Shown here: positions 36,492 through 61,221 of the stretch, in pieces | How the letters are laid out: every line of letters starts with the position of its first letter | Position numbering within the stretch: the stretch's first letter is position 1 | Assembly: GCA_007026445.1 (NCBI GenBank) | Contig: VDMD01000062.1 | Coordinates: forward strand, 92,477 to 156,476 | Direction of reading: 5' to 3' | Source of the DNA: Schizophyllum amplum | Taxonomy: Eukaryota > Basidiomycota > Agaricomycetes > Agaricales > Schizophyllaceae | Length of the DNA: 64,000 nt | The notes under the pieces: generated by a model | Databases searched by the model: none | Seen by the model: only the letters and a program-made list of their open reading frames with translations | Told to the model about the DNA's origin: nothing | Program-made: the position numbers and the translations under genes

Positions 36492-38490
36492 TCAAGCGTC
36501 CTGCACTTCGCGCTCCATCTGCACGGTGACCCGCACCGGCGACGTAGATTGCGCGCGCCGCGCGAACAGCATCGGAAGTGGCGTTGGCGCCCTCTTCGCC
36601 GCAGCTTCCGCGTCCGGCGCCGCAGGGGCAAGGTTGGAGAACGGCGGCGGTGAAGGCGGGTCCGCGGACGCATCGTAAGGGGTCGTGTAGTATCCTTGGT
36701 TTGTGTAGTACGCGTGGTTGGGGTCCGTAACGTAGGCGTCCGAGATGTAGATGACGTCGCGCGAGGAGAGGGACGTGGCGAGGGAGGCGCAGGACGCGAG
36801 GGAGGTGACCGAGCCCTGTGGCGTGTGGCGCGCGTGGAGGTGGACGGAAGGTAGGGAGGCCTCGGAGGGGCTGGCGAGGATGCTGCGGTCTGGTAGGCGG
36901 TACTGTGGGCGAGCGCCGTCAAGTGAGCCGGCGCCAGCCGTCGCGGTCGACGTCCGTTGCGGCGACGGCGGGATGATGTGCACAGGCAGCGCTGGGATGC
37001 TCTCCGCTGAATCTTGTCCGAGGCCCGGCGGCGCTGACCAAGATGATGACCGGGTCAGGTCATCGACGTGCTGGCTGTTCAGGCTCCTGCTGCGGCAAAG
37101 ATCTAGGCTCTTGCTGCGGCTCGCGGAGAGGTCGGCGGGAGCGAAGGGGTCCTTGCGCGTCGACGCGAAGGGATCGTCCGAGTCGCCTCCGCCGGCCACG
37201 TAGACCGGCAGGGATCCGATATAGGAGTCCGATACCGGCTTCTCGACGTTCCAGTGATCCTTTTTCCATCTACGAACACCGTAAGACATCGTCAAGACTT
37301 AGCAATCAGAATGATGCGTACTGAGGATGTGGTAGCTTGAACGTTGGCGCCGTAGAGCGGCGGAATACCTTCCGCAGAACGTGCAGACAGCGTTCCTGGT
37401 AGCTCGCTTCACCAGCAAGGCCGAACAGCGCGAAGAATGCTAAGGCGCAGAGGACGGGCAGCCACCTCTCCGTCTCGATAGCAGCGCTGTTGACACTGGA
37501 GGCGCGCCAGTCTGCCGCCAGCACTCGCGTGATTTGGCCACCCTGCGAATGCGCATGAGGCCATGATACCCAAGGTTCAAGCGCACTCGAATGTGCGAGG
37601 GCTGCGATGCGGAGACTGGCGGTGGTGATAGTAGCGAAGTTGGTAAACAGGGCGAGAAGGACGAGGCGGAGGCAGAGGCCAGTGCGCATGCTTCCCATCT
37701 GTGCGAGCATATGGTCGAACTGCAGACGGTGGATGTAGGAGACGCGCAGGCACAGCACTGTAGTAGTGTTAGGACATGTGATATAAGGATACGCCAGGAA
37801 CATACCTGCGTATATTAGGGAGGCCGCGCAGAGCCCGAGGGGCCAGTTGAGGACGAGGAAGTATGCGGGAAGGGTATTGTAGATGGCCGCATGGCAGCCG
37901 AGGTCTTCAAGAATGGTGAAGCGGTGGTCTTGGACGATAACATCTGTATAAATATGAGCATGGGTCGGTCGTAGAAGATGATGCAACGACTGACGAAGGA
38001 TCATAACGAGGAGGGGGATCCCAGCAGACAGGCCGAGATCGAACGCAATGACGCGTAGGGTCTGGAACTCAGGTTAGTCGTAGAATAGAGTAGTAAGAGC
38101 AGCACGCACATCTCGTCGTGTCTCGGGAACAGCTTTCGTGGAGGTGACCTGCCAGAGGCGATGGGATATACAGAGACTGGAGGCAGGGATGCCGATACTA
38201 GCGCCGACAAGTAGCTTGGAAGCTTCATCGTTGTATCAGCCTTACATTCTGAGGAAGTATAGCGGTCACGCACCTATGTCACACCAGCCCGGTACAGCGT
38301 TCACGACGTTCCCCGCCCAAACCACCGCGTCGATGAAGGATAGCAGGCAGGCGGTCGCTGCCCAACACGCGAGCGCACAAGCGCCCACATTCCATGCCTG
38401 CAGCGTGAACGGCAGGGGCAGCAGGGCAAGCACAGATCCCAGGAAAGCGAGGATGGGGAAAAGAGGATACGTCGGGTCATTTGAGAGCAT
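36492..38490 (-). CDS. STE3-type pheromone receptor 1, 582 aa
   Basis: Exons 38490-38274, 38222-38110, 38061-37995, 37943-37806, 37757-37322 and 37269-36492 give 583 codons. The protein starts with the short outer N-terminus MLSNDPTYPLFP and has seven helices in the first 300 residues. STE3 landmarks are ASIGIPASSLCI, IVQDHRFTILEDLGC, YIHRLQFD, and a last helix before RWLPVLCALAFFALFGLAGEA. The cytosolic tail (about 324-582) is Ser/Pro-rich and contains HIIPPSP, RSILASPS, RDVIYISDAY (about 494-503) and PLPMLFARR, all shared with receptor 2. It would sense farnesylated peptide pheromones from a mate and signal through a G protein. The six-exon plan and exon sizes match receptor 2 almost exactly. 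Its promoter holds three GAACAAT/ATTGTTC sites. Confidence 0.95.
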
Positions 38491-39321
38491 TGCGGGGTCG
38501 TAAGTCGTGCCGAGACGAGGCGGAAAGGGATAAAGAACGGAAAACCGAGACGGGGAAAGAGACGGAGAAAGAGATGGAAGCGTACATCCTGATCTCTCCG
38601 TCCTTAAGTTCCTTCCCGGGCGGTACCTGGCAACACGAGGACAAGTGCATTTTGGGAACAATGAGGGCGGAGGCAAAACCCGACGGCACGAGGCGTTACA
38701 GCGTCACGATTCATTGTTCGTGACTGCGTGACTGCCATTGTTCCCGCTTTGATCGTGGGACGTGCGCCCACAACCGTTGTGTGGGTTGGTGATGGCAGCC
38801 CCTTTCCGGACATGCCCTATTGTCAAGCTACGCTCAAATGTGTCCTGTGCTCGCCGACGTCAGCTCAACCTCATCGTAATGCGCACCGGCCTCAGCTGCT
38901 TGCATTTCTGTCTCACGATTCTCCTGGCCACGTTCGTCATCTTCATCAATATCGTCTCGACGAGCCTCCGCATCTCAGCTCCTGCTTAGTCAAGTGAGCT
39001 TGCACCCTTGGTCCTATAGTCCCATGCGCCTTACTCTCAGAAGCACCCTATTAAAGGCTGCCCGTACGGTGTTCTTCCTCCAGTCTTGTTCAACACGCTC
39101 TTGGATTTAGGGTCATGCGAGCTACCGTGAGCGGTGTACGAGCCCTCCGCAAAACATACTCCGCCGGGTTTGACGGCGTCAACGTTCGAGTTGCCCGATG
39201 CCGGACTCTTAGTAAGCCCTGTCCTCCCTTCAAGTTCGAGTTACTACGAGTATCAATAGAGATATTCATAGCATCTTCAGATGGAAGACGAATGCGCGAT
39301 TCAGCCGAATCCAGTCTCGTA
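38491..39321. other. Promoter of receptor 1 and spacer
   Basis: Contains the receptor 1 promoter motifs (38656-38743). A hydrophobic open frame near 38880-38990 (LLATFVIFINIVSTSLRIS) may be a remnant of a membrane-protein gene, but I cannot support an intact one. Confidence 0.35.
38656..38743 (-). promoter_or_regulatory. Three GAACAAT/ATTGTTC sites upstream of receptor 1
   Basis: GAACAAT at 38656-38662 and ATTGTTC at 38713-38719 and 38737-38743, 166-253 bases before the start. The core AACAAT/ATTGTT is the kind of sequence bound by HMG-box factors; in basidiomycetes pheromone-response regulators such as Prf1 are HMG proteins. Binding here is inferred. Confidence 0.5.
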
Positions 39322-39813
39322 TACAGTCGAAACTCTCGTAATGGATACTGTCAAAATGTATATTTCTCATAATGGATAGGATCTGGGCGAAAACGAGCGG
39401 CACCCCCTCTTGTATGCGGGGAAATTGGCGATTCATGAATAATGAATAATGGATAGGCCTGTAGAAGCAATATTCATTTCGACGGGCACATTTGGCAGGG
39501 ATTGTGCCATCACTGCATACTCTGTCGAGGTCAGTGATGATACTATACAGCTCCCTTCACAATGAAGATCCATTGTCTGATGCTTTGGGTGACCCAGTGA
39601 TACATCGAAAGGGGTCTTGTCGGCGGTTGGTGACCGGGCCGACAGTGAAATTTGAGAACAATGGCATGACTCACAGCGTTACATTTCGTAGCGTACTGTC
39701 ACGCGCACGGGCAACCTGTCACGGGGTTGTGACAATGCGGGAATGAATAATCTCTCATAATGAATAAGTTTTCGGCGGCTCAGACGCTATCCATTATGAG
39801 AGTTTCGACTGTA
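39322..39813. mobile_element. MITE, pogo/Tc1-mariner type, 488 bp
   Basis: The left end (from 39324) reads CAGTCGAAACTCTC followed by GTAATGGATA; the right end (to 39811) is its reverse complement with one mismatch in about 24 bases. Both ends are flanked by TA (39322-39323 and 39812-39813), the target duplication of Tc1/mariner/pogo elements, whose ends commonly start with CAGT. There is no transposase, so the element is non-autonomous. Inside are subterminal copies of CATAATGGATAGG-like and AATGAATAAT motifs and one GAACAAT (39656-39662). Confidence 0.85.
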
Positions 39814-41463
39814 CCTACGTGAGCTCCTTATACGTGATAGGCGCTCCGCGGACGAGCGCTACGCCGACGTCGACCTCAATGCGCAGGGACACCCTTTCGT
39901 CCCGGCCAAAATGTGGGCGAGGCGCAGCAGGAGCTTGAGCAGTCGAACAACCGACTTCAGACGTGCATCGTCCAGAACGTTTGCACCATAATCTGCGGAG
40001 ATCGTCCTGATATTGTCACCCGTTTATCGTAGGTGCTGTGCTGTCGCTGAATGCTTCCTGTGACTTGGACTTGTTCCACCGCGGCCATAACTTTCTGCCT
40101 GCCCGCGCCCCTCGTATTCTCCGCCCGCAGCCTCCACTACCGGTCCTTCAGAAGTCTCGCTGGAGCTCTGCACCTTCAGCTGCGTCAAGCCCGCCCAGGT
40201 TTCGGTCACCTCCCTCCCCGCTTGCTCCTCGCTGTCCATATCCGTCTCGCCAGGGGAACATCTTCTGCGCCTATACCACGGCCCACTATAACGCATACTA
40301 CAAGGCTCAAGCATCCTGCACAATCTTTCAACTTGACCGGGAACCCGCCCTCACGCTATGTTCCAACCTCCCGCCGACGGGAATGAAAGGGGTGGCGTAG
40401 GCCGCGCCTCGCCCCCGCTGCCGCTGCTAGCGCTGTCCGGACGGGGCCCTCAGCCACCGTCTGCGATGCGGGTCACGGCGCGAGGCGCAACGGGGGCGCT
40501 GGTCTCGACCCGTCTCAGGGATTGCGAGCGCCTTCCTTTCTTCACGGCTCTGTTCGTCATGACACTGATCATCGCCAATGCACCCTCCCTGCGACTGCAC
40601 GTCGCCAATTTCTTCCGGACTCGGCATGATCTTTGAATCTTCTTTGCCTGGTATTTATTCGTCTTCGACTACGCTTCAACCTTGTTCATTCTGGCTTGGG
40701 TTCCAGGCCGTATCATCATCATATTTTCGTGTCCCACTTTAGATCACGATACAAACTGTAGCTTTACTTACCTAGTCCCGACTCTGGATGCAGTGCTCGG
40801 TTTAAGCAATAGCCTGGCCGCTCCTCGTGTGGATATCAACTCTGGTTGTCGCGCTGCCGCCTTCTGAGTCCCCCGCACGAGTCTGGTATAGGGATCCTGG
40901 GAGACATAGAACCAGCTCTTCCAAGTGTGGGCTGCCCCTTTCATTGTACGCAATATTTATTATTCCGCCGGGATCTTTGGTGCGCGTGCATTGTACCCAA
41001 GCTGTTCCGATCTTCCCGCCGCGCGTCCGCGAATTATTCCGACCATCGATAAGGGTATATCTCGCTTAACAGTCATGCGCCTGCGCGGGACGCGCGTCGC
41101 TGAATAATGGAGGTCGGAGTCGAATTTGAGGAATAAGCAACTCCGACGGCTGCGGTCCGGCGTTCCGAGGGTCCCGGAAATGAATCTGACGTGCACAGCC
41201 ACCCTAAACTCCTGCCTGTTTGGGCCACTTTCTCGCTCTGCGGGGATATCGACGGCAGCAGATTTCGCACGCTCCGTCGGTGTAGCCCGTCCGCGGTGGT
41301 GCCGAGGGTTGCCGCTGAGTCTGAAATGGGGAGAGTATATAAGGAGGCGCCGCATGTAGCGTGAGAACAGTAATTGCCCTCTATCTCGAGCCATCACCAT
41401 CCGCCATCGCTGCTCAGACCAGCCATCGCCGCTCAGCCCTTCAATATCTATCATCGCATAAGC
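39814..41463. other. Spacer between MITE and pheromone gene 1
   Basis: No intact gene. Short hydrophobic frames (for example FFTALFVMTLIIANA near 40540) could be debris of a membrane-protein gene split by the MITE, but no convincing exon chain can be drawn. The last 130 bases are the leader of pheromone gene 1. Confidence 0.35.
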
Positions 41464-41752
41464 ATGACTTGTAAGTCCACGATGCATTTTATCTTATCTC
41501 ACAGCTAATCATGCTTCAGCTGCAATGGACGCTTCTGCCTCCATCGTCACTTCTCAAGTCGCCACTGAGACGCCCGCCGTCCAATCTCCCTCCACCGAGA
41601 TGTCGACCACCTCCGCCGCCCACGGCGCGCAGCCCCCCTCCTCGCAAACCCTCGAGCCCTCTAACGATGGCGCGACCCTCGCGGTCCTCATCAACTCCGA
41701 GCATGTCGAGGAGTCCAATAGCAACGTTCATGGCTGGTGCTCCGTCTCGTAG
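41464..41752 (+). CDS. Pheromone precursor 1, 79 aa, CaaX CSVS
   Basis: Exons 41464-41470 and 41520-41752 (49-bp intron) give 80 codons. The N-terminus is MTSAMDASAS; an internal ATG at 41525 (MDAS) is an alternative start giving 75 residues. The C-terminus SNSNVHGWCSVS is a CaaX box for farnesylation, with CSVS as box. A probable processing site is SEH upstream of VEESNSN. The Thr/Ser/Pro-rich middle is the usual discarded pro-region. The end NVHGWC is shared with precursor 2, so the two form one class. The gene lies about 1 kb from the stop of receptor 2 and faces it. Confidence 0.9.
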
Positions 41753-42761
41753 ACGTGTCGACGAGGCCGAGGCCCGCTCTCTGGTGCGCATTACTTGCCC
41801 TTGACTTCACCGTAAGCATATCTAACTCCCTGACCAGGTCTCGCCTCCATCGCCTCTCAGGCAACATATGCAGTCCACTTTTCTCGGTCTCGTTGGTGTA
41901 CAATAGCCCTGATTCATGTCTATCGACGCTGCTCGCGCGAAATGTTCCCCGCTTGCGGCACGTCGTCCTATATGCCTTCCCCCTCATCCTGACCAGCGCC
42001 TGGTCTCATTATCGTGGCGCTTATGTACTATGCAACCTTCTATGCTCTATCTGTTTTATCGGATATCTATCGGAATATCATCGAGTCGTCTGTCCAGCAT
42101 CCTGGACCCTTCCAGCAATACCAGGAGTGGCGCGAGTTCCGAGCGCCGACCTGAGCGGATAAGTGCATGAGGCTGCTTCAGCCTCTTAAGAGATAACCGT
42201 GTTAAGCCTTCGCTTTCCATGCAAGGCTTGCCCCTTCATCGACTTCATCGACCCAGCGGCGCTGCGTGACCATCGCGACTACGCATCACGTAGTCTAACT
42301 TCCACAAGTGCCCTCCTCAAGTTTCAACCCATATTTGCGCTGTGCCGGACGCAGTTGTATACAACGACGATACATTGCACATGTGGTCGTCTACTTATAT
42401 ACACGTCTGAAGCCCATGAATCTCATGCTACACGTTAGATAAGTCAGATATAAAGAGAGACGTGAACGTCGAAGGGGTCGTCAGATGCAGGGAAAACAAC
42501 GCGCGTAAAGCAGCAGCGTCGCGGGTATGCAAGATATGCAGAGAGATGTATGCGTGAAAAGCGTGGAGGAAATGTATGTGTGTAAGAAACGTATGCAAGA
42601 ACGAACAAGTCCGCGACCAGCGATGAGTAGAGGAAAGGCAGGCATATATGATAAGTGGGGCATAGCGTCGGTAAACGACGATCGTGCTGGGCATATGGAT
42701 GACGAGCGCCTCCAGGGCGGCGGCGGCGACGAGAATGGAGCAGGGGGGTGCCCGCCCTCGT
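41753..42761. other. Convergent 3' flanks of pheromone gene 1 and receptor 2
   Basis: 1 kb with no supported coding sequence. Confidence 0.4.
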
Positions 42762-44725
42762 CTATGGGTGGTCCGCATCCCGCTCAGTCTCGACAAATAC
42801 TCGCACTGGCGGTGGGGACCGCTCGCGACGAGTGAAGAGTGGCGGCAGCGGTGTCGCTGCGCGACGCGGCTGCCGTGTCTCCGCCTCGCTCGGCTCCTGG
42901 CCTGCGGGGTCGAAGTTCGAGAAGGGCAGCGGTGATGGTGCGTCAGCGTACGCATCGTAGATGTAGATGACATCGCGACCAGATGTGGTGGAGGCGAGGG
43001 TCGTTGCGAGACTATGCAGCGAGCTGTGTGAGCGCGAATGCTGGGGGGTGTGGTGTCGCGCAGGCGTAGATGGTGCGCGGAGTGATGCGAGCGACTGGCT
43101 GTGGAGCGAGCTCGACGACGGGCCGGCGAGGATACTGCGGGACGGAAGGCGCTGGAAGGAGAACTCGCGATGCTCGATCTCCGTAGATGAGCGCCGTGAC
43201 GACGACGTGGTTGTTGGCGAGCTGGGCCCGGAGGACGGAGGCGAGGGCGGGATGACGTGCAGAGATAGGTCGTGCATGTCCCTGCCCGGATATTCGTACT
43301 CGGGAGGCGCAGTCGTCGCCGGTGATGATGGGAGGGGAATGCCCTTCTCGGCGTCGAAGCTCATGCTGCTGTCCGCAGCAGTGCTTGAGGCGAAGGTGTC
43401 CTTCATCTTCATTTTCTCCGCAGAGGCGAACGCGCTGTTGGCAGCCTTGGGCATATAGACTGGGAGAGAGCCAGCATCCTTCTTGTTGTCCCACCTGAAG
43501 ATGAGTCAGTACAGTAAAATATAAGGACATGCACATGGACGTACTTGGGATGAGCCAGCTGGAAGCCGCGCAGCTTGGGGCTTGATACGTGTCCGAGCTT
43601 CTTCGCAATGACGGCATAGCGTTCGGAATAGTACCTCTTGGCCTCGTTCGCGAAACCGAAGAGCCCGAAGAACAGGAAGGCACAAATGACCGGGAGCCAT
43701 CGCGTTAGCTCGACGGAGCTCTGGTATGTTGCGTCGGACCGCCAGATGAGGGCCGGAATCAGCTCGACGCGGCCAAAGTCGTAGTGCGTATCCTCCCAGG
43801 AGATCCAGGGGGATAGCGTGATCCCATGGCTGCTGAGGTAGATGCTCAAAGCACCGAGAGGAATAGTGCAGCACATGTCAATGATGGCCAGCAGCATGAG
43901 CCGCATGTAGCGGCTGGTGTTGAGGGATTTGTTGCGCGCAAGGATCTGCGCAAACTGTAGGCGGCGGATGTAGAATGCGCGCAGACAAAGGGCTGGTAGT
44001 TGATGAGATGCGGGTCTCATCTTCAGGATGAATGTACTTACCAGAGAAGATGAATGAGAAGAAGCCGAGGACAAGCGGCCACATGAAGAACAGGAAGTAG
44101 GCGGGTAGCGTGATGTAGATGGCCGCGTAGCATCCGACGTCTTCGAGAATATCAAAGCGGTGGGGTTGAACAACGACGTCTGCAGAGAAGTCAGTGGATG
44201 CCACTAGTGCGGAAGGAGCGGACGCACGAAGGATCATGACCAGGACGGGGATGCCAACCGCAATCGCAAGGTCAATACAGATGGCGCGTATTTTCTGCGA
44301 GACAAAGGGTCAGCCATGTTCTCAGGAGGGACGTGGTCCACTCACGTCCTGGCGCGTGATGGAGACGCATTTCATGGCAGAGATCTTGTACAGACGGCGG
44401 GAGATACAAAGGCCCGACGCCGGGATGCCAATGCTGACACCGAGCAAGAGCTTCGACGCTGACGAAACTATAAGTCGTGGGATGGAACAAGCAAGGCGTA
44501 GTACTCACAGATGTCGCACCATATGGGCGCGACGTTGAGGGCGTTGCCTCTCCATACGATCGCGTTGACGAAGGAGAGCAGACAGGCGGTGGCCGTCCAG
44601 AGCATATAGGCGCATGTTCCCGAGTTCCAAGCCTGCACATGCCATGGCAGCGGTACGAGGCTGAGAACGAAGCCCAGGAAGGCGCAGATGGGGAACAAAG
44701 GGTACGTTGGGTCGTTCGAAAACAT
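42762..44725 (-). CDS. STE3-type pheromone receptor 2, 574 aa
   Basis: Exons 44725-44509, 44467-44346, 44294-44228, 44179-44042, 43992-43545 and 43494-42762 give 575 codons. The start MFSNDPTYPLFPICAFLG mirrors receptor 1. Landmarks are WCDI, GVSIGIPASGLCI, GIPVLVMIL, VVQPHRFDILEDVGC, FYIRRLQFAQIL, and SVELTRWLPVICAFLFFGLFGFANEA before the tail. The tail shares HVIPPSP, RSILAGPS, RDVIYIYDAY (about 504-513) and the end TPLPPLFTRR with receptor 1. Exon lengths 217, 67 and 138 are identical to receptor 1. It is a G-protein-coupled receptor for lipopeptide pheromones at the cell surface. Precursor genes 1 and 2 lie on either side and share a tail class. Confidence 0.95.
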
Positions 44726-45688
44726 TACGGTGGTCGTGAAGCGTCGGAAGAACGAGGAGGAGCGGCGAAGGACGAGAAGTCCGTGCGGGAGGGAAGGAGG
44801 AAGTAAGCTCTTTCCATCCCGGCCACTTCGCCTTTATGATCCCGCATTGCCGAGCACGAGGATGAGGACAATGGGCAAGACGTCTTTGTGACATGTCACG
44901 AAGCATTGTGCGTAACGGTTGTCACAGACGGTGACCTGTCACATCTATTGTTCAATTTTTGAGGCGAACAGCAGGCTGGAAGCCGTTGCGTGGTCGCGAT
45001 AGCCCAGATTAGACCATGATAAGTAGAATTCCATGGATACTCCTTTTGTAGGCTGCACACTTCCCATATTCCTGCCGTGTACCTGACGTTCGTAGTGTCG
45101 GCGTTGACTCTCTGAATCCGGTGCTCTGAATCGGAAGTTGTGAAGTGCAGCCTCGTCGAGGTCAAATTTTCAGGGCTACTTACAGCATATAGTCCGGGTC
45201 TTGTTGATACAGTCACAAATGGGATCAGCTTTGCCAGGATGTTACGAGGAGCGAGGACAAACGTGCATCCTCAAGTTCACATCGAGACACGCGTGAGCCA
45301 CAGTGAACCAGCAATACCATTCCAACTCCAAAGCGCTTTTCAGTCATAGCTCTGCCAGCAGATGTATCATTCACCATAGATACTGCATAAAACTTAGTCG
45401 ACGTGCGGGTACTACATAATAGGTTCGTATGCGTGCGATCGTCAGGTCATCAAAAAGACTGCGCCTACGCGCTGTCAAAGACGAGGTCGAACGAAGAAGG
45501 TATGAAGGTGAAAGGCGGTGCAAGATATAGTACAACGAGAGCGGTCAAAGGGACAACCGGGAGTTTGGTATGGACGCCTGAGGATGGGATGAGCATAGGG
45601 TATACAGAGGAAGGGAGGGAGAGCAGAGGGAGAGCGAGACTTACCGGCATAGATGGGAGCCCGGCGAGAAGGAGGGAGCGGGAACGGA
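44726..45688. other. Promoter of receptor 2 and 3' flank of pheromone gene 2
   Basis: No gene. It contains a cluster of TGTCAC/GTGACA words (44885-44945) and one ATTGTTC, both listed separately. Confidence 0.4.
44885..44953 (-). promoter_or_regulatory. TGTCAC cluster and ATTGTTC site upstream of receptor 2
   Basis: Four or more GTGACA/TGTCAC words, including the palindrome GTGACATGTCAC (about 44888-44899), lie within 60 bases, followed by ATTGTTC at 44947-44953. TGTCA is a typical TALE-homeodomain core and ATTGTT an HMG core. That the A-locus homeodomain or an HMG factor acts here is inference. Confidence 0.4.
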
Positions 45689-45889
45689 TCATGCGATTGT
45701 GCACCAGCCGTGCACGTTGTTGTTCCCGCTATAGTGCTCGGCGTCGAAGAGCATGGAGAGGATGTCGCTATCCGCGGCGGCAGAGCTGACAGCCGCAGCG
45801 GTCATGGTAGGTGAGGCCTCGGCGGGGCGCTCAGCGGCGTCGGAATCGGAGGCGCCGAAGAGGTCAAGGATGTCGGTGAAGTTATCCAT
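45689..45889 (-). CDS. Pheromone precursor 2, 66 aa, CaaX CTIA
   Basis: A single coding exon starting MDNFTDILDLFG, a start form common in basidiomycete precursors. The end is DAEHYSGNNNVHGWCTIA: CaaX box CTIA, and a charged pair EH that fits the E-R/E-H processing signal, which would give a mature peptide of about 12 residues ending in farnesyl-Cys. A likely 5'-leader intron (GTGCGT to CCCTAG) ends about 20 bases before the ATG. Its closest relative is precursor 1 (NVHGWC). One GAACAAT site is at 46221-46227, upstream. Confidence 0.92.
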   Translation of the reverse strand: MDNFTDILDLFGASDSDAAERPAEASPTMTAAAVSSAAADSDILSMLFDAEHYSGNNNVHGWCTIA

Positions 45890-47109
45890 GGTTGCGGAAG
45901 GTGTTGCGCGCTAGGGAAGATATAAGCCCATGTCCAACGGTGAGAGTGACACTCGACGCACCTATAGCGGCGAGTCGACGAGCAGGCGGCGAGCGATGCG
46001 CGCGGGGGTCTTGAGTACTTTGATGCCCACTCCACACACAGGCAGCTTTATACGCGTGGGTGAGACCGCCTTGCGCTAGTCCATGATTGGCTGTCCACGA
46101 CAACAATAAACTGCGCGGCACGCCACAGACAATGGTGTAACTCCTCCTGTGACCTGTATAGTCACAGGATTGCAACAGTCATGGCGGACCTTGAGAAAGT
46201 CCAAAACTGGGGTCCTTGGAGAACAATGGTGATCGAGCTGCACGCTCCTGCCGTGTTGTTGTCTGTTTGGGTTGCCCGTCTAGTTCCTCTCGGCGAGGCC
46301 GCGATGGCCGTATTCCGAGGTCGTCTAATCATGAGGGATGAACAAAGGAAGGGAACGGTCGTGAGCGTCAGGAGAGATTCGTGCCCACTTTGCACGGGGA
46401 ATGGTGAGCGGTTCATGCCATTGCATGGTTGCGAGAACAAAGCTGCTGCGTGGGAAAATCGGACGCTATCTGGTCCCGCGGAAGCGCCACGGAAGCGGCT
46501 TTGGTTGCCGATCTCATATTACCGGATTAGGCGAACAAGGGGAGTGGCGACTTTGGAGGGAGGCTTGCATGGGACTCTGGTAAGCCTTGCTTTGCAGGCA
46601 ACGAGCTCGCTCTTTTGTAAACAGTCTACTAGTTCGAGAGTCTCACAGACGCGGCAAGGAAGTTCAGACAAGTTTGGCATTCGGGTAGGAAAGAGGGCAA
46701 GCTACTGTTACAGTCGTTGTATATACTCAGAGTTACAGATTGTATGTACACTGTCGCAGCTGCCAGCAACTGCTACATGCAAAGGAGAGAGGGTAGCCAT
46801 AAGTAAGACTGAGCGACCATATGAACAGAAAGACCCGGGAGACCATAATAAGGAATAAGTAGACGTGGCTCGAAGTCGTAAGTATCGTGATGAGGGAGTC
46901 GAGGCTGCCGTAGCTGCCTCGGAGTGTTGGTAGGACGAGTCATAATGATTCTGCACGTCGGTGAAGACGATGGAGACGGTAGTAGGGAAACGTGCGAGGC
47001 AGAGCGCTCGAGGCGAAGTCTACAATGTTGATCAGAACACGACTCCTTCGGGAGATTCGAAAAACGTACCTGTGCGCGTCCTCCCTAGCGTCCTGGCTAG
47101 CGCCAGAGC
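45890..47109. other. Promoter of pheromone gene 2 and 3' flank of gene 3
   Basis: A 225-codon open frame on the plus strand (46181-46858) has no domain or relatives I recognise and overlaps the promoter; I do not accept it as a gene. GAACAAT lies at 46221-46227. Confidence 0.4.
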
Positions 47110-47307: not shown

Positions 47308-47472
47308 GTCGCTTGTGAGGGTGATGATAGTCGCGAGGACGGGATGGGGATAGGCGTGCAAGGTGCGTCGTCGACGGAGAAGGTCGAAGGTTACGGGTGG
47401 GCAACGAAGGTAAGAGGCTCTCACATTTACCAAGGACGCCTTCTTATGTGAGCCAGCGTTCGTGGGAGTTAC

Positions 47473-50717: not shown

Positions 50718-50849
50718 CTATGCAACGACGCAATAGCTCTGATAATACTGTATATTGTCCTCGCCATCGCAGGGGACCTCGGTGAGAGGCTCCCGGTCGA
50801 CAGGGGCGGCCAGAGCGGGAGCGATGGGGATCATCGTGAAGCTGTCCAT
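50718..50849 (-). CDS. Pheromone precursor 6, 43 aa, CaaX CVVA
   Basis: A very short gene: MDSFTMIPIAPALAAPVD, then EPLTEVP, ending IQYYQSYCVVA before TAG. It has all family marks (MDSF start, acidic pro-region, CaaX box CVVA) and fits between receptors 2 and 3 with the other precursors. The tail YYQSYC is nearest to precursor 3 (DYGSYC). At 43 residues it would be missed by a usual length cut-off. I saw no classical GAACAAT site in its immediate upstream region. Confidence 0.88.
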   Translation of the reverse strand: MDSFTMIPIAPALAAPVDREPLTEVPCDGEDNIQYYQSYCVVA

Positions 50850-51723: not shown

Positions 51724-51963
51724 ATGGACGCCTACGCTACCGCTGCCCCCAGCTCCCCGGCTTCCAGCCTCGTAGCTGATGCTGTGCCTGGACTCGAAGG
51801 GAACGCTGCCCCCAGCCTCGCAACAGAGGTCCCGCCTTCCCCCACCACCACAGACACTACCACTGGCGCCGCCGCCGCCGCCACGGACGCCCAACTCACT
51901 CGCGTCCTCACCAACGCCGATAAGCCGTCCGGGTACTTCGCCGGCTATTGCGTCGTTGCGTAG
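51724..51963 (+). CDS. Pheromone precursor 7, 79 aa, CaaX CVVA
   Basis: Starts MDAYATAAPSSPAS and ends NADKPSGYFAGYCVVA. CaaX box CVVA. The pro-region is Ala/Thr/Pro-rich (TTTDTTTGAAAAA). The tail is of the precursor 4/5/8 class but has Ser where those have the internal Cys (KPSGY against SPCGY/KPCGY), a change inside the predicted mature peptide. A TATA box lies 320 bases upstream (51395), with a probable leader intron from about 51653. Confidence 0.92.
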   Translation: MDAYATAAPSSPASSLVADAVPGLEGNAAPSLATEVPPSPTTTDTTTGAAAAATDAQLTRVLTNADKPSGYFAGYCVVA

Positions 51964-53268
51964 TCTCTGGGTCATCGCGCCGTCCGTATAACGAAGCGGT
52001 GCGTTTTTCCCCTTCTGTCCCGCGGATCCGTCTGACTCGAGAGATAGACGGCGCGCTGGCTAGCCCTCGGCTAGTACTGCCGAGCTCGGTACAGGCTGGC
52101 TCGCTGGGCCTGGTTCGTACCAGGTTCCCGAGCATGGCGCAGGCTGGCTTGGTTGTTGTTTGTATCCTGTACTTGTATCGCGCACCCATCACCCTCGTTC
52201 ACGCCCTCACCAATTCTTTTCGCCGTTCGACGTTCTTTGACCCCTACACAGCGCCTTGGACACCCTCATGACACCTGCGACATCTATGACTCTGCTCTCC
52301 TATGCCTTTATGCTTTTTATGTATCTTTATGCCCCAATTATGCACACGGTGGTCGTTGCGCGCGCTGCGTTGAATTCAATTCCTGGGTGTTCTCTAAGCT
52401 TGCAGTCATCGGGTGCCCTGGCGTTGCCAAGCTCCAGGGCCTCCTCACAAGAGTGAATGGCAGATATGTCGCCGCGGAGAAGACTCAGAAAAGACTCGGA
52501 CGGTTAGAGTACAGGCAGGCGTTGAAAGTTGAGAGGCGAGGGACGTGCGTATATGGAAAGCGAAGGTAGACCGCCGCAACCAAGCGACCGTCGGCGGCGT
52601 CCAGAGAGGATTGGCCAGATGCTCGCGATGGCTGGTGGTTGACTCCGGCTGCAAGTGCCCTGAGAAGACGTAGAAGACCGCGCGGACACGGAAAGACGAC
52701 GTTTCAGGTCATTCAAGTTAACTGAGTTCGAGCAACATAAATAGCATGCATTGACAGACCTCGCGATACAGATACAGCCCCGAGTGCTATGAGTACATGT
52801 ATATATACCGGGAAATGGATACAGAGGTGAAGAACGAGGCAAATAAATGAGACGGTAGTCATAACGAGGCAGGTATACGGAACTGTAGAGCAAGAACGGG
52901 ATAAGGATACGAGAGCGTATTGGCGACGAAAGGAGTGGGGGGCAGCTGCGAGGAATGGAAGACAGCTGCTAGGACTGAAGGCGGCGTTCACCAGGAGCGA
53001 CGTGTGTTTCGTGATATAGGATGTCATGAAGAGGAATGAGGCGGACGTAGGGGAAATGGAGACGAGGGTATAGGTGTGACCCTTAGAAGAGAGCACGGGG
53101 AGGGCACGGTAGACCGACACGGTGCTTTGCGAGAACTGTAGACAGTCGATGCGCAAGGTCGCGGTCTGCGTATACGGTCAGCGACGTCAAAGCAGCCCAA
53201 AGAAAAAAGGACCAAGGCAGCGTACCGTGTAGAGTCTGAAGGCTGCGTATAGACTCAATGCCTCATCG
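51964..53268. other. Convergent 3' flanks of pheromone genes 7 and 8
   Basis: 1.3 kb with no supported gene; open frames on both strands are compositional. Confidence 0.4.
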
Positions 53269-53501
53269 TCATGCGATAACGCAGTATCCGCCGCCGTAGC
53301 CGCACGGTGAATCGGCGTTGGCTACGAGGTAGAGAAAGTCGTCCATAGCTTTCGCGTCATGCGACACGTTCGCGGAGGATGGACGACCAGGCAACGGGTC
53401 CCCGAGCACCGGGTGCGCGTCCCGCTGCTCGAATGCCGGCGCGGCTTCAAGAGCATCGGCATCGTGTCGTCGAGGAAGTCGAGAGTGGTGAAGGAGTCCA
53501 T
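53269..53501 (-). pseudogene. Pheromone precursor 8, frame-broken, CaaX CVIA
   Basis: The start at 53501 reads MDSFTTLDFLDDT, very close to precursor 4 (MDTFTTLEFLAET), but this frame does not lead to the tail. The end NADSPCGYGGGYCVIA (CaaX CVIA) is in another frame, which also carries a plausible pro-region (EAAPAFEQRDAH). The span is 233 bases, one short of a whole number of codons, so a one-base loss near 53455-53470 explains it. Either the gene is dead or the base is a sequence error. Two ATTGTTC sites lie upstream (53751-53757, 53765-53771). Confidence 0.75.
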
Positions 53502-54471
53502 TGGTGGTGAGTGATGGTGGGTGGTTGGGGTAGGGTATTGAGATAGCTGGAGCTACTGTCAGCATGATGCGATGAAGGCAGCAGGGTACGACGCACCAGA
53601 AGACAGGTTCAAGGGCGAACGATGGTACAGACGGTCGAAGAACAGATGGTTTCGTTGGCGGATGAGGTAGAGTCGTTCTCATACTCGCGCAAGAGGGTCA
53701 TATAAGTCTTCCTTTATCGTTGTTCGCTCGTTATGGGTTAGGCAACGTCTATTGTTCAAAAGCTATTGTTCGCTGAATGGGTCGTTCCTGGCAATTCTGG
53801 TGTGTACACTTATGCCTTTCTTGGGCTTGAGGAACAGCACAGGACATGAACGCAAATAAGAAGACCGTGGGTTCGGCAGTGACTGGAGCTGAGTGTTGTT
53901 GGACGAGAAAGGACTGCCGATCAGATTCACAACTCGGGAAGCTCGGTCCGGAATGCCGGTGTGACGCATCGTGACATGCTGGATGGTGACTCACCCCAAC
54001 TTGCCCTCAAGTTCTATCCTCGGTCGACGCTTGCTTGCTAACGGGTGCCCGCTCGCCCGCACAGCGCCAGGACTGGAACTCCGTCTCCTCTACCGCTTTG
54101 CCGCTCCGCTCGGAATATCAGAATAAAGTCGCACCCCATTATGCAGCGCATTGAGACTCCGACCCGACCTGCATGGTCACTTGAGACTTTTCGGTCGGCG
54201 CACACGCGTCCCGACCCACGCGCAACCTTATCGCGACGATCTCCGACCCGGTGGAAGTCTCTATCGAATTTACTCACGGTGTCGGAGTTCAATTGAGGGG
54301 TACCACGCGCCGCCTAATTATCTCTTCATCCGTACCACCACCTTGCGCCCTCTTGCGAAACCTACAACTTGCCTCATTCGCTCGCGCACTTGCCTTAGCT
54401 CGATACACCCATCGTCGAGCACGCACGCACATCTACCAACGCAACTACCACCACCGTTCAGCCAGCTAGCC
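53502..54471. other. Divergent promoters of pheromone genes 8 and 9
   Basis: Contains the paired ATTGTTC sites at 53751-53771. No gene. Confidence 0.4.
53751..53771 (-). promoter_or_regulatory. Paired ATTGTTC sites upstream of pheromone gene 8
   Basis: Two ATTGTTC words, 14 bases start to start, about 250 bases before the start at 53501. Confidence 0.5.
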
Positions 54472-54685
54472 ATGCCCGCCGCCGCCGCCGCCCCCGCCAC
54501 AGCCGCCGCGCCCGCCAACACACCCGTCACCCCCACCAAGGCCCGCCGGTCTATCCGCTGCCGCCGCTCATGAGGCCGCGCTCAAGAAGCTCCTCGACGG
54601 CGCCCCCTCGTCGTCGCCTTCAGGACCGAAGAACGGAGAGCAGGAGGGCGAGGGGAACATGACCTATTTCTGCGTCGTCGGGTAG
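54472..54685 (+). pseudogene. Pheromone precursor-like gene 9, frame-broken, CaaX-like CVVG
   Basis: ATG at 54472 opens an Ala/Pro-rich frame (MPAAAAAPATAAAPAN) that stops after 33 codons. Another frame continues with AAHEAALKKLLDG, then GEGNMTYFCVVG and TAG. The end matches precursor 10 (GNMTWYCVVA), so this is a member of the family; the span of 214 bases is not divisible by three and the frame must change near 54545-54575. The last residue Gly is unusual for a farnesylation box. It is probably a decayed copy, or else carries an indel error in a GC-rich run. Confidence 0.6.
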
Positions 54686-55664
54686 TCAGACAGGCGTTTT
54701 TGTGCGCGGATTGTCGTACGTGTCTCTTTTTGACGCGTCCGATGTTGAGGTCGCTGAACGGATGATGCAGGTCTCGCGCACGATGGGCTCGCCACCGAAG
54801 CCCCCATCCCGGTCTTTTTTGTTCTCACCAATATGCGCCTTCATCGGCGGCCGCGTTCTATGTTCTATGCTTATGCTCTATGTATCCTATGCCATACCGT
54901 CCTTTTAGTTTGTCAGCCGTCTGAAATCATCCACGTCTTGATCTGTTCTCTTGGGCTGCACGTATGCTCTGTGGCGTGCACTTAAATTCCCGCCGTGTTG
55001 CCGATCGTCGGATGGCTGCTGCATCGTCTGGTCTATACTTCTTCGCTCGCTCGCTGACTACACCAAGATCCTGTTGACGCGGCCTTTCAGGCGAGTACGC
55101 AGTCAATCTTGGCTGTCCCGGTCCTGACCTCTGTGTCCCAGCCCTTCGCTATGCCGCTTCCAAGTTACCTTGCGGCGCACCCTCCTCCCCTGCGTGCAGA
55201 TATCAGCCGCACGCCTGTCCCTTGCTCTCGGTCGCACCCACCAAGGTCGCCAATCCTTCATTCCCTGCATTCGGCCCACTTGTCGCACTCTTTCTCCAAG
55301 TCGGCCGACCACAGTATCATCTACGGCCCTTGTCACTAGGCCTGCCATCTAGTCTAACTCGTGCAGAATCAATCATGCTGTACCAGGATTGGCTTACTGA
55401 TCCCACGCCACTCAAGTCCTCCACACGCCACTCACGGTCGCCACACGTCGTCTATCTCCAGTTTATCTCTCCCCCTCCTCCCTCCTCCCTCATCGTCCAT
55501 ATCTCCACCGCCATCCCACCCTTTTCACCACTCACAGCCCATCCCTATCGCCCCGATTTCAAATCCCAGGCATAAAACAGCGGGGCCAATTCATTTACGA
55601 TTCCTTCTCTTCTCTTCTGCCAGTGATCCGTGCGGCTCTCTTCTTCGAAACACGATCGACGAGG
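54686..55664. other. Spacer, no gene
   Basis: 3' flank of gene 9. Open frames are C/T-rich and unsupported. Confidence 0.35.
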
Positions 55665-55915
55665 ATCGACGACGACGGCGGCCCCTGACACCGACGACGG
55701 CGGCCCCTGACAGCGGCGACAACGACGGCGGCCCCTGACAGCGACGACGGCGGCCCCTGACACCGACGACGCGGCCCCTGACGGTGGCGACGACAACGGC
55801 CCCTGACGGTGGCGACGACAACGGCCCCCGACGGTGGCGACGACAACGGCCCCGACGGTGGCGACCCCGACGGTGGCGACGACAAGCGACGACAACGGCC
55901 CCTGACAGCGGCGAC
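55665..55915. repeat. GC-rich minisatellite
   Basis: Roughly 250 bases of imperfect tandem copies: first GACGACGGCGGCCCCTGACA units (about 20-24 bp), then GGTGGCGACGACAACGGCCC units (about 20-24 bp). It yields long open frames on several strands that are artefacts of the repeat. It lies between pheromone genes 9 and 10. Confidence 0.85.
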
Positions 55916-56868
55916 ATCCTCGAGCCGGAAGCAGATGGAGTGTTGATCGCCGGGGTTGAGCGTCGGTGGCGATGACGAGGGAAGGACAAGGCGTGGACGA
56001 GGTCGACAAGGACAGAACACGGACGGGAAGAACGACCACTGACGATCGTCGACCGGAAGATGCGGTGGATGAAAAGACGCCAACTCACCACTGATAGCGA
56101 CGCGGACGACGCTGATCGCCCAGAGTCAGCGACTGGTAATCGCAGAGATCAGGCAACGCATGAAGGAGCGAGAACGAGATAGATAAGACAGCTATCCATA
56201 CAAGCAGACCAAAAACCCCGGGGGAATAACGATATGTATGCGAGTACAACCAGCGGGCGTCGTGAGAGTCGTAAGAGAGTCGTGAAGGGAGGTACGAGTA
56301 CAGATTGGTTCGTGAATCGCGGTATAGACAAGGGCGGGATGAGTCGTATGTACAAGACAGCTGTGAAAAGAAGGAGTAAATATGGTTAGTATGTCTGGGC
56401 ACGGAACGTCGAGATATGTACAAGATCAGTCGAAGGATATGAACAGGGACGGTCGAAAGATATGGACATGGGCGGGTCAAAGTATATGGACAAGAACGAC
56501 GGCCGGGAAACGAAGAGGATAAGGATATCTGCGCGCCAGGCAACAGGTAACGGAGGGAGTGTGGGTGGGTTTGGATGGTTCCGAGTTGGTCGGATACGAC
56601 GGAGGTTGTGTACGTTCCGGGCGGGGAGTCGTCTACGCTCCAGACGGGGAGTCGTGTATGTGCCGACATGGGAGATCGTTGAGATATGACTGAAGGGAGA
56701 AGGTCAGTCTCATGCAAGACAAGAACAAGGGAGCGACGCACTACAGGCGCAAGCATGCGCGGGATATGTACAGGGAGGAGAGTTGAATCTGGAGCCGTGG
56801 CATGCGCACGTCGCTGAAGATTATCGATCAGTCCCTGCGGCGGTTGTGGACAAAGCTGTAGAACGCAC
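55916..56868. other. Spacer, 3' flank of pheromone gene 10
   Basis: No gene supported. Repetitive A/G-rich text on the plus strand. Confidence 0.35.
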
Positions 56869-57036
56869 CTAAGCGACGACGCAATACCACGTCATGTTCC
56901 CTGAGCCGTAGCGCTCCGCGTCCGTGGGGACGTCGTCGGCTTCAGCGGTAGACTCCGTTATGGGTGCCGCGCACGCGTCAAGGAGCGCCTGGAGCAGGTC
57001 GTCCTCGACGGCAGGAAGGGTCGCGAAAGAGTCCAT
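56869..57036 (-). CDS. Pheromone precursor 10, 55 aa, CaaX CVVA
   Basis: Starts MDSFATLPAVEDDLLQALLD and ends DAERYGSGNMTWYCVVA. It has CaaX box CVVA and a classical Glu-Arg processing site (DAER), predicting a mature peptide of about 10-11 residues. The frame is open upstream, but MDSF is the family start. The tail class is shared with broken gene 9. Two ATTGTTC sites lie about 250-280 bases upstream (57284-57290, 57314-57320). Confidence 0.93.
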   Translation of the reverse strand: MDSFATLPAVEDDLLQALLDACAAPITESTAEADDVPTDAERYGSGNMTWYCVVA

Positions 57037-57905
57037 GGGATATTGACTGTGAGACTCGAGGATGTGGGTTGCACACAGGGAGCGCAGGGGCTGGTATGCG
57101 GAGGGCAGGGGAGGTATGCGAAGAGCAAGAAGCGACGATGTTGTCGAGCCGGTGCTCGAGCGAAAGATTGACGGGGGGCGTACAAAGTCACTTGTGGGAA
57201 CCCAAACGCGCTTCAGCTGTCCTTTATAAACTGGAAACAAGTCCCATGTTCGCTAGATTGGGACGCCGCGGACTTGCCGACCCATTGTTCGCTGCGTGAC
57301 CTCCAGGCCGTGCATTGTTCTGCGCACCACGGTGCGATATGTCGCCGCTTCATGAGACGCCACAGTCCCAGAGAGACACAGCTCACGGATATGTTCCTGC
57401 ATTCTTCTGCTTATGTCTCAAGGTCTCGGTTATCGTGGTGGTGAAGTTCAAGAGCATCGCCCCTTCCTTTGTTGAAATTGTTTGTGAGCAGCAGCGTGTC
57501 ACGCAAATGTGACACATTGCGTGACTGAGTGCCGCGCGCGTGACGCGATGCACGCGATCGGATGTTGTGCTAAAAATACCACATTGTTCTACTCCGACGC
57601 CCACCCCAGAACGCGCGCACCGGGGGCATCGTGCACAGTCTACCCCTCTCGGCAGCTGATTAAGCGTCAGGCGGTCGGACTATAAAGTCGCAGCGCGCGG
57701 TGAAGGAGGGCATCCGATACCGTTTTTCCACACCTCAGAGACAAGCCGAGCCCAACCGCGCGCATCCCGCCCGCCCGCTCCTGCTACTGTCCGCGCATCG
57801 TCGCAGCTGCTACAAGGTACGCTATTGAGAGCCTGGAAGATACGCACTGCTGACTCCCTCCCAGCAACCCAACCAAAGAAACCCCACCATCCTTCAATTG
57901 TACCC
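57037..57905. promoter_or_regulatory. Divergent promoters of pheromone genes 10 and 11
   Basis: ATTGTTC at 57284-57290, 57314-57320 and 57593-57599; several GTGACA/TGTCAC words at 57496-57530; TATAAA at 57681-57686 on the side of gene 11, followed by a leader with a probable intron ending just before 57868. No coding sequence. Confidence 0.5.
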
Positions 57906-58072
57906 ATGGACGCCTTCCTGGAGTTCCCCCACCCTCCGTTGACGCACCAGAGGCCTCGTCCTCCCCCTCCTCGGCTCCGGACAGCAGCCGCCGATGACGA
58001 GGTCCTCTCGTACTCTTCGACGCTGAGAAACCAGGCGGATCCTTAACCTACGCCTGGTGTGTTGTCGCTTAG
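57906..58072 (+). pseudogene. Pheromone precursor 11, frame-broken, CaaX CVVA
   Basis: ATG at 57906 gives MDAFLEFPHPP, but that frame ends at 58046 without a CaaX box. The frame that ends at 58072 reads LFDAEKPGGSLTYAWCVVA, a typical precursor end with CaaX box CVVA. The span is 167 bases, one short of a multiple of three, and an Asp/Glu/Ser-rich pro-region appears in yet another frame, so at least one, perhaps three, small indels are present. The tail (LTYAWC) is a class of its own. It lies 1.2 kb upstream of receptor 3 in the same direction. Confidence 0.65.
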
Positions 58073-59247
58073 CGACACACGCCCCTCTACGCGCGGCATC
58101 TACCCTAGCCGGTGAGCGATCCATCCCCTTCGTTGTCTGCGCGCCGTGCTGACTTCCATCCAGCGCTTCATCACCGCCCATCCCCCTCTCTCTTCGACTT
58201 CTCCCGTCGCGGATCTGGCGCAGCAGTGCGACAGGTTCTCGGACCCCTTCCACAAACCAATGTATGCCCTATGAACGACCAAGGTCGACCATATATGCCC
58301 GACCTATGATCCCCAACGCCCTTGTATCATATCTATTATTGACAGCCTGGCCGTCTTTATCACTCATTTATTCACCGGGATTCACGACTGCGCCGTCCTT
58401 GTAGTCATGTACGTGTAGCTCTTGTGACTGGAATGGGATTCACTGGATATGTCTGCTCTGCGCGATCGTCATTCTCTCGAAGATCATAAGCCAAAAGCTC
58501 ATTGCAGCCTCTTGTATTTGTTAGACACGTCGAATATGAGAAGCTTGTGATCAGGAATGACCGAGCCTGCGTTTGCGCATCGGCATTCGACGCCAGGATT
58601 CTTGTGTTGACAGGATGGCAGCGGAGATACACGTTATGCAGCATTGCAAAAGTAGGACACAAGCCCAGGAATCGCTAAGCAAACGATCATACCGACCAGG
58701 AAACATGACAGTAGCCACTGGATGGCTGTTTGCCGCAGATGGAGATTCGCTCGACGCTCAGAACCTCGTTCCTCGCTGAAGGATGCTGATATTCGAAGAA
58801 CGACGTGATTCTGCGTGTCTATACTTCTCCATGACAGCGTTTACACCACAGAGTTGGGACAATAGACATGACAGCCCACGGGTCGTTTACAACGTCGCCG
58901 CGAGAGCCACGCGAGAACAATGCAGGAGATCATGGTAAATATCTGTCAACAAAGGACTTGCCGTTCGGCCCGACCTCTCCGAGCCATTGTCCTCAGGCCT
59001 CATGTTCGTTGTCCTCACAAAGGGGAAAGAAGGTTGCAAGGACATAAAAATGAAGGAGATGGAAGTACGCCCTTTGCTTTCTGTTCCATCCCGGCCTCTC
59101 ACCGTAGACCAGCAGATCTCTCGGCCTCGTGCCGTCGCCTCTCACGACTTCCATCCACCGCCCAAGTTCCCTCCCGCTCAACAGCCTCCGCCGCTGTACG
59201 ACTAGACTCACCGACACGTCCTCTACGAACTCCTCACTGCCCTCGAC
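58073..59247. other. Upstream region of receptor 3
   Basis: No gene. One GAACAAT at 58915-58921, 327 bases before the receptor start. The last 120 bases are pyrimidine-rich leader. Confidence 0.4.
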
Positions 59248-61221
59248 ATGCTTGACCCGACCTACCCAGCCTTCCCCGTTTGCGCCTTTCTGGGCTTCAT
59301 GTGCTGCATGGTGCCGCTGCCCTGGCACCTACAGTCGTGGAATTCGGGAACATGCTTCCTCATGATATGGACCGCCATCGCCTGCCTCAGCCAGTTCGTC
59401 AACTCCATCATATGGGCAGACCACTCTCGCAACGTCGCGCCTATCTGGTGCGAAATATGTACGTGTCGCCAGTGCATCGCGGGCGTCCTACTGACATACC
59501 GCTCAGCTATACGCATCACCCTTGGCGCCTCCGTCGGTATCCCCGCGTCCTCCCTATGCATTGTACGCCGCCTCTACAGCATTGCGAAAGTGCAGGCGGT
59601 CTCCTCCACTCGCGCCGAGGTGCGTCATTAGTCCACTTGCCTGCTTCGGTGTCTGACCCTTTGTTCAGAAATTCCGCGCCATCATGGTGACTCCCTCATA
59701 TGCGTACTGTTTCCCATCCTCTATATCGTGCTGCGTGCGTCCCTTTTCCTCTCATTACTGCTCTTCGCTCATGACCTCTCAGAAATCGTTGTGCAAGGCC
59801 ACCGTTTCAACATCCTCGAGAACATTGGCTGCTTCCCGGCCATTGTCAACACCCCTTGACGTATCCTATCACTTTCATGTGGCCCGTCCTCGTCGGCTTC
59901 GTCTCGGCGATATATTCAGGTGAGTACCCATCCACTCTTTCCTTGCTATAGCTAACATCCTCACTAGTCCTCACCCTCGTGCATTTCAACCGCCATCGCC
60001 TGCAGTTCAGCCAGTTCCTTCACAGCAACTCCACGCTCAGCGTCAGCCGATACCTCCGACTTATGGCGCTCGCGCTTACCGAGATCATGTGCACGACGCC
60101 CATGGGTATCTTCGTCATCATTCTCAATGCAAAAGCCACCCCTGTCTCCCCCTACGTCAGCTGGGAGGCTACACATTGGGGATACTCGCGCGTCGATCAG
60201 GTGCCGGCTATCCTCTGGCGCAGCGACCGCCTGCTCGTCGCCTCGTACGAGCTGACGCGATGGAGCTCGCCTGCCATCGGGTTCATCTTCTTCTTCTACT
60301 TCGGCTTCGCGCAGGAAGCGCGTCGCAACTACGCCGCCGCCTGGTCCGCCGTCCGCCGTTTCCTTCGCATTCCGGAGACTCTTCCTTCGCTGCCGGGTTC
60401 CAAGAAGTGCGTTTCCTTTGTTCCCTTTACACGATCGCTTTACTGACATTTGCCTCAGGCCCTTCGCCATGCCATCCATGGGCAACTCTCTCCCGGCCAA
60501 GGCCAAGGCATATCCCGCGCCCCCCAAGCAATACGCGAGCAACAAGCCATACGCGACACCCATCCCCATCCACATGCACGGCATGCAGAAGCTGGCTTCA
60601 TTCGACCTGTGCAACAAGGATCTCCCTCCATACCCGACGTCGAGGCGTACCCCTCCGCACCCATATACACCGTCGAGCACTCCACCGTCGTCGACTCCTT
60701 CGCCATCGGCACGGCATACTCCACGGACGGCACCGCGTACACGACAGACAGCACCACGTACTCGCCAGATGCGACCCCTGCGGCCTTCCGCTCACACAGC
60801 GTCGCCTACCGCCCGCACAGCGTGGCCGTCTCCCTGCCCATGACCGCAACCGCCCCGGCGGCGGACGACCTCCCAGATACGCCGAGCTCGTGCTCCTCAT
60901 CGGACTCGTTCTCGACGTTGCAGTCGCGCGACTTCATCGTCCTCCCGAGCACGCGGCCCAGCAGCGCTGAGCTCGCGCTGCCGCGGAGACCCAGTCCGTC
61001 GAGCCCCGCCGCGCCTGCCGCGGCTCTCGCAGTTGTTCGGGATCGCCCCATTGTCGGAGACGGTGCAGCTCGACGCGCCTGAGGCGGAGGCAGCGCGACC
61101 AACCTCGGAGGCGACCCGGCAAACCTCGGAGGCAGAGGTGGAAGCGGCCGAGCCGCGCTCGCCTGGCCTCCTCGACGTACCGACGTCCCCGAGGACGCAT
61201 TTCCGGCACGCGTCGGTATGA
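59248..61221 (+). pseudogene. STE3-type pheromone receptor 3, multiple frameshifts
   Basis: Exons 59248-59458, 59507-59619, 59669-59734, 59783-59919, 59968-60406 and 60459 onward follow the same six-exon plan as receptors 1 and 2. Landmarks are DPTYPAFPVCAFLGF, WCEI, ASVGIPASSLCI, VVQGHRFNILENIGC, and ELTRWSSPAIGFIFFFYFGFAQEA. Exon 3 is 66 bases (67 in both others) and exon 4 is 137 (138 in both others): one base is missing in each, near 59685-59692 and 59851-59858, so the frame is lost inside the helices. In the tail the frame also seems to change near 60607-60620 and again before 61033; SRDFIVLPS corresponds to the SRDVIYI tail motif of the others. The gene is either decayed or carries indel errors. 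The 3' end is uncertain (61082 or 61221). Confidence 0.8.

Follow-up and report, generated by a model that had tools for sequence, protein, structure and literature searches.

Two haplotypes of a probable B mating-type locus in Schizophyllum amplum, differing at the Bβ receptor

A stretch of 64,000 nucleotides from the basidiomycete Schizophyllum amplum (the window; C269:92477-156476 in an assembly of 49.65 Mb and 309 contigs) very probably contains a haplotype of the B mating-type locus, the pheromone/receptor (P/R) system. Such a haplotype would consist of a Bβ sublocus (the receptor gene R2, of the Bbr type, with the pheromone precursor genes P1 and P2), a Bα sublocus (the receptor gene R3, of the Bar type, together with at least P10 and P11, which lie nearest to it), other precursors in between, and a receptor-like neighbour, R1, of the Brl1 type. 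C269 is the contig of the window and ends at w64000, w marking window coordinates; the allelic locus lies on a second contig, C241. Gene content and orthology are those of a B locus, and among R1-R3 deep allelic divergence is limited to the Bβ core. An earlier sequence-only reading had named the region a B mating-type locus, an identification that is borne out, with R2 of Bbr type, R3 of Bar type and two subloci. The locus is a known kind of system in which the allelic evidence is unusually clear. The two B haplotypes in one assembly cut a puzzle of three receptors and eleven pheromones to two receptor alleles and three peptides, a small and testable specificity set with a defined loop in R2. 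No publication on the S. amplum B locus was found among the listed hits of searches in open-licence literature.

The Bβ receptor and its two alleles

A PF02076 profile search of the whole genome finds five STE3 genes on C269, five in equal order on C241 and one on a further contig, C1. Three of the five C269 genes lie inside the window, the number given by the sequence-only reading, and all three score above the cut-off (R1, w37402-38454, minus strand; R2, w43628-44689, minus strand; R3, w59278-60332, plus strand). The B locus continues past the window with two upstream STE3 genes in the same orientation (C269:80760-81818 and C269:84437-85393), in a region with 0.2-3.8% substitutions per kb relative to C241. 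These are probably receptor-like genes and, by number and linkage only, would be brl2 and brl3. The C1 gene (C1:2296442-2297454) is about 4 kb from a Con-6 gene (C1:2301353-2301846), one of 11 Con-6 matches genome-wide. In S. commune, bar, bbr and brl1-3 are described as linked and brl4 as unlinked, near Con-6 (PMC8161036), and the six S. amplum genes appear to correspond to that set in number and linkage, with five linked and one apart beside a Con-6 gene. All nine pheromone-family matches in the genome (17 candidates scored) are on C269 and C241.

C269 and C241 are colinear, with gaps, from C269:64781 to the end of the window. When the alignment is divided into 81 bins, each of 1 kb or less, 70 have at most 9% substitutions. 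The remaining 11 bins are four that lie well outside the window on its left, one 134-base end piece, three in w30571-36570, a single bin at w52450 and the pair covering R2 (25-26%). About 7 kb of C241 (C241:256647-263668) is absent from C269, at w30514-30571.

The Bβ specificity core (w38747-46449) has no colinear high-identity match in C241 in the contig alignment except for R2 itself, which is 25% diverged. R2 (w42762-44725, minus strand; PF02076, splice model and trees) has six exons and encodes 571 amino acids (aa). Its protein is 74% identical to the C241 allele, with a synonymous divergence (dS) of 1.13 and 25-26% substitutions per kb. Among protein records, R2 matches P0001 of S. amplum at 100%, followed by Bbr2 of S. 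fasciatum (74%) and of S. commune (70%). Highly diverged alleles are found between the contigs for R2, and neither for R3, which is alike in both, nor for R1. With the contrast between C269 and C241 as a proxy for segregation, R2 alone among R1-R3 seems to behave as a heteroallelic mating-type gene. A dispersed repeat of about 490 bp (w39321-39816) also lies in this haplotype-specific block, with near full-length copies on 10 other contigs at 85-99% identity; its ends also match in opposite orientation, in the manner of a miniature inverted-repeat transposable element.

In two trees, the C269 allele of R2 groups with Bbr2 of S. commune and S. fasciatum, leaving out the C241 allele (support 98/94 and 95/96). 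Joining the two S. amplum alleles is rejected by the approximately unbiased (AU) test (p 0.014), for a group that was named only after the first tree had been seen. The placements of R1, R2 and R3 have supports of 94-100 in the 31-row tree, which includes the first of the two upstream genes (C269:80760-81818). Since R2 is placed with Bbr2 from two other species and apart from its own C241 allele, it is read as a trans-species polymorphism, a phenomenon reported for mating receptors of Trichaptum (PMC8970355).

The allelic differences in R2 are concentrated in the loop between transmembrane segments 6 and 7 (TM6-TM7; residues 233-276): C269 and C241 differ at 18 of 44 loop residues versus 42 of 256 elsewhere (p 0.0008), with loop limits that were taken from hydropathy and chosen after the allele differences had been viewed. 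The same loop differs from S. commune Bbr2 at 6 of 44 residues, versus 23 of 256 elsewhere. R2 specificity thus probably resides largely in this loop. A search for solved structures related to R2 by sequence gave no match.

The Bα receptor, the Brl1-type gene and alternative explanations

R3 (w59248-61221, plus strand; PF02076, orthology and trees) is the Bα receptor, of Bar2 type. It is closest to Bar2 (60% over the full length for the S. commune protein, versus 52-53% for Bar1 and Bar3), and it joins Bar2 of S. commune and S. fasciatum with supports of 100/100 and 100/99 in the two trees; the two Bar proteins of S. fasciatum do not form one clade (p 3.5e-67). The way in which Bbr and Bar lineages group across the three Schizophyllum species suggests, for part of the mating specificities of S. 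commune, the classic model, an origin before these species. The six exons proposed for all three receptors hold for R1 and R2, which have GT..AG splice models; R3 has the same exon order by frame inspection, its frame being disturbed by short indels in both contigs. R3 aligns with C241 over 1456 bases without a substitution, and single-base indels occur in both copies; a protein is annotated for C241 (P0121), yet that copy also has an indel. Residual base-level assembly errors are therefore likely behind the broken frames, and the idea that R3 and P11 are pseudogenes was set aside in view of the substitution-free R3 with single-base indels on both sides.

Besides the choices made after inspection for the R2 group and loop, several observations weigh against the two-sublocus, two-haplotype interpretation. 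R3 is whole in neither contig, and the last 5.1 kb of the window (w58885-64000) has no substitutions and 10 short indels relative to C241; therefore, the sharing of Bα may result from the assembly, as a collapsed contig end and not the sequence of a second nucleus. The frames of P8 and P9 are disturbed in C269 and C241 alike, and any of P3-P9 may belong to Bα or to Bβ. Both trees place Brl1 among the Bbr alleles with weak support, so that the Bbr alleles, taken together, are not clearly separated from Brl1. Finally, a single homeodomain (A) haplotype is identified, a count based on the matches on contig C244, which include four of five for PF05920; the fifth is on C90, and eight of the nine PF00046 matches are on other contigs. 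Two A haplotypes would be expected in a fertile dikaryon.

The strongest alternative, a serious possibility if the less probable one, is that the assembly changes over to the C241 nucleus in the right part of C269 (about w50-64k), in which case the C269 nucleus would have a Bα allele of its own that is absent from the assembly and possibly different. The lack of substitutions in w58885-64000 is preceded by two kb with 0.1% and 0.6%, short indels reach 26 per kb in w50450-58884 versus mostly 0-3 further left, and both the R3 indels without substitutions and the contig end at w64000 fit such a switch. However, w46450-56884 still differs by 1.2-9.4% substitutions per bin, which makes a second haplotype the source of at least P3-P9. 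Near this contig end, open frames at w61986-63783 lack a Pfam match; they have a diverged relative further along C241 (294339-296248), match other sequence around the locus in inverted orientation, and are perhaps a local gene family.

It is unlikely that C269 and C241 are instead a segmental duplication within one nucleus, which would hold two Bβ specificities and make the strain constitutively B-on or self-fertile. The single A-locus haplotype agrees with a duplication, as does an assembly that seems mostly single copy, with 11 Cpn60/TCP1 places on 11 contigs (places not compared with one another); about 10 Cpn60/TCP1 genes are expected. The long colinearity, with its 70 of 81 bins at most 9% different, is nevertheless what allelic contigs would show, the assembly has a further pair of duplicate contigs (C70/C146, 99.6% over 4838 bp), and the C269 allele of R2 goes with alleles of other species and not with that of C241, which argues against a recent duplicate.

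R1 (w36492-38490, minus strand; PF02076, splice model and orthology) is a Brl1-type STE3 receptor-like gene of six exons and 582 aa; its introns and those of R2 are of 48-52 bp, GT..AG, in both haplotypes. After its own allele, R1 is closest to Brl1 of S. commune H4-8 (51% over the full length), with which it forms a clade at 100/100 in the 31-row tree, and it varies little between haplotypes (protein 96% identical, dS 0.09, 3-4% substitutions per kb). R1 belongs with S. commune Brl1; therefore the locus has two mating-type receptors, R2 and R3, and not the three that the sequence-only reading had counted, and a set of three mating receptors including R1 was rejected on this orthology. That R1, R2 and R3 would all be determinants of mating specificity, like the three receptors of Coprinopsis B loci, is a shade less credible again than a duplication. 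Three linked STE3 genes do lie amid precursors, P1 sits between R1 and R2, R1 is near Bbr (41-44% over the full length) and in a weakly supported position among its alleles, and a mating role has been proposed for Brl1 (PMC8161036); against this stand the clade with S. commune Brl1, the small difference between haplotypes, and the description in the same source of Bar and Bbr only as pheromone-recognising mating receptors. A non-mating STE3 cluster merely lying beside small CaaX genes is hardly credible: R1 is a receptor-like gene, as the two upstream STE3 genes probably are, but R2 and R3 are closest to the recorded Bbr2 and Bar2 of S. commune and S. fasciatum, and the R2 alleles are deeply diverged with a trans-species grouping.

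Pheromone precursors and predicted specificities

An independent scan recovers all eleven CaaX tails of the sequence-only reading (CSVS once, CTIA three times, CVVA five times, CVIA and CVVG once each). Its eleven precursor genes stand in part: clean frames from ATG to CaaX are present for eight here (P1-P7 and P10), and P8, P9 and P11 are disturbed. With a strict pattern (ATG-started open reading frames, ORFs, of 30-130 aa ending in C[VTSI][VI][ASGC]), the 25.3 kb locus has nine matches (P1-P8 and P10), against a mean of 0.02 and a maximum of 1 in 50 shuffles, and the 66 kb of flank have none. The curated cut-off of PF08015, the family of fungal mating-type pheromones, is passed by 7/11 (P11 scored on its C241 copy); P5, P6 and P9 are weak and P8 has no match.

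Beside R2 there are two precursors here and one in C241. P1 (w41525-41752, plus strand; 75 aa, ending in SEH followed by VEESNSNVHGWCSVS; ORF scan and Pfam) occurs in this haplotype only, with no counterpart in C241. P2 (w45689-45889, minus strand; 66 aa, AEH followed by YSGNNNVHGWCTIA; ORF scan and Pfam) has a positional counterpart in C241 that is a different peptide ending in HGWCVVA (dS about 1.0, nonsynonymous divergence dN 0.50).

The other nine precursors (P3-P11) have their last 18 residues equal in C269 and C241. Tails equal to those of C241 are carried by P3 (w47110-47307, minus strand; 65 aa, ending in DYGSYCTIA; ORF scan and Pfam), P4 (w48222-48398, plus strand; 58 aa, DSPCGYFGGYCVVA; ORF scan and Pfam) and P5 (w49712-49876, plus strand; 54 aa, DKPCGYGGGYCTIA; ORF scan, below the Pfam cut-off). 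P6 (w50718-50849, minus strand; 43 aa, QYYQSYCVVA; ORF scan, below the Pfam cut-off) is whole here and interrupted in C241. P7 (w51724-51963, plus strand; 79 aa, DKPSGYFAGYCVVA) and P10 (w56869-57036, minus strand; 55 aa, AER followed by YGSGNMTWYCVVA), both from the ORF scan and Pfam, are identical in C241, P10 as a protein. Two members are precursor-like and come from the tail scan: P8 (w53269-53504, minus strand; DSPCGYGGGYCVIA; no Pfam match) has its MDSF-type start and its tail in different frames in both haplotypes, the frame being open to the tail in C269 and interrupted in C241, and P9 (w54471-54685, plus strand; GNMTYFCVVG; below the Pfam cut-off) has no in-frame ATG in either haplotype. 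P11 (w57906-58072, plus strand; AEK followed by PGGSLTYAWCVVA; tail scan and Pfam) has a frame that is broken here and whole in C241. Between P9 and P10 lies a GC-rich tandem repeat (w55667-55916) whose units are 22-25 bp long.

The sequence-only reading had seen several specificities in one haplotype, from the 11:3 ratio and the diversity of the tails. These cannot be read off in this way: the ratio overstates specificity because 9/11 precursors keep their C-terminus across haplotypes. The aaX residues of a CaaX box are, moreover, removed during maturation. An acidic/basic pair precedes the tail in P1 and P2 (EH), P5 and P7 (DK), P10 (ER) and P11 (EK), and exactly such a pair is lacking in P3, P4, P6, P8 and P9. 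A literature search for six of the pheromone tail strings found none in print.

From the motif and established knowledge, the precursors would be farnesylated at the CaaX cysteine, cut upstream of the tail, at the acidic/basic pair where present, and exported as mature peptides to be bound by an STE3 receptor of the other nucleus. C269 and C241 appear to differ in B specificity through R2 with P1 and P2 on one side and one other peptide on the other, which points to a single receptor and one or two pheromone genes as what would tell the two nuclei apart. A haplotype must not activate itself, so P1 and/or P2 would be expected to activate the Bbr allele of C241, and R2 to be activated by the C241 peptide (ending in VADGNTTFHGWC). 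None of the nine shared precursors would activate a mating receptor of either haplotype, and the two nuclei would be alike at Bα and different at Bβ. A difference at one of the two subloci, Bα or Bβ, is enough in S. commune, where Bβ receptors reportedly do not respond to Bα pheromones (PMC5871698).

P3-P8 are six shared precursors of the GYC/SYC type, apparently without a receptor of their own here. A rather doubtful, though possible, extension is that the sequenced heterokaryon owes its compatibility to very little, a single Bbr allele with one or two peptides, while Bα and nine precursors are common to both nuclei; that P3-P8 are a reserve for matings with other alleles or ligands of Brl receptors; and that the C269 Bbr, with only 6/44 of its loop residues different from an S. 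commune Bbr2, still recognises S. commune Bβ pheromones.

Comparison with other loci and surrounding sequence

The S. amplum locus resembles the S. commune B locus in the 113/67/138 bp exons and introns of about 50 bp of R1 and R2 and in the clustering of precursors round bar and bbr. Gene order appears to have changed: S. amplum has two STE3 genes, about 43.6 kb, Brl1, P1, Bbr, ten precursors and Bar, whereas in S. commune, according to the text of PMC8161036, brl1 lies upstream of bar, with brl2 and brl3 on the downstream side. Bbr and Bar are 14.5 kb apart in S. amplum, versus 7 kb between the subloci in S. commune, and R1 has a late intron, whereas S. commune brl1 is described without an intron in its 3' part (PMC8161036, as far as its account of the gene goes). 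The label "expanded" in the sequence-only reading fits only mildly, with 11 tails versus the 4-5 (Bx) and 8-9 (By) precursors given for S. commune in PMC12028200.

S. fasciatum likewise pairs a Bar2-type with a Bbr2-type allelic lineage (P0124 and P0002), the two receptor proteins, on which alone the species were compared, presumably lying on one contig of 47166 bases. The Trichaptum MATB locus, as described in PMC8970355, is similar in having conserved non-mating STE3 genes beside two mating receptors that are polymorphic, with allelic lineages that predate the species. It differs in its two precursor genes annotated in reference genomes, versus eleven tails in S. amplum, and in its population data, versus two haplotypes here.

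Scans of the window for tRNA and Rfam families gave no matches, and nine of ten other window ORFs had no Pfam match, the tenth having a weak leucine-rich repeat match below the cut-off. As to a tetrapolar arrangement, the homeodomain matches lie with a peptidase M3 gene, probably a mitochondrial intermediate peptidase, on C244 and the B locus on C269 and C241, a separation at contig level only. The C244 homeodomain matches fall at two places about 550 kb apart (554171-560214 and 1108929-1115284, the second adjoining the peptidase M3 gene), which are probably A subloci.

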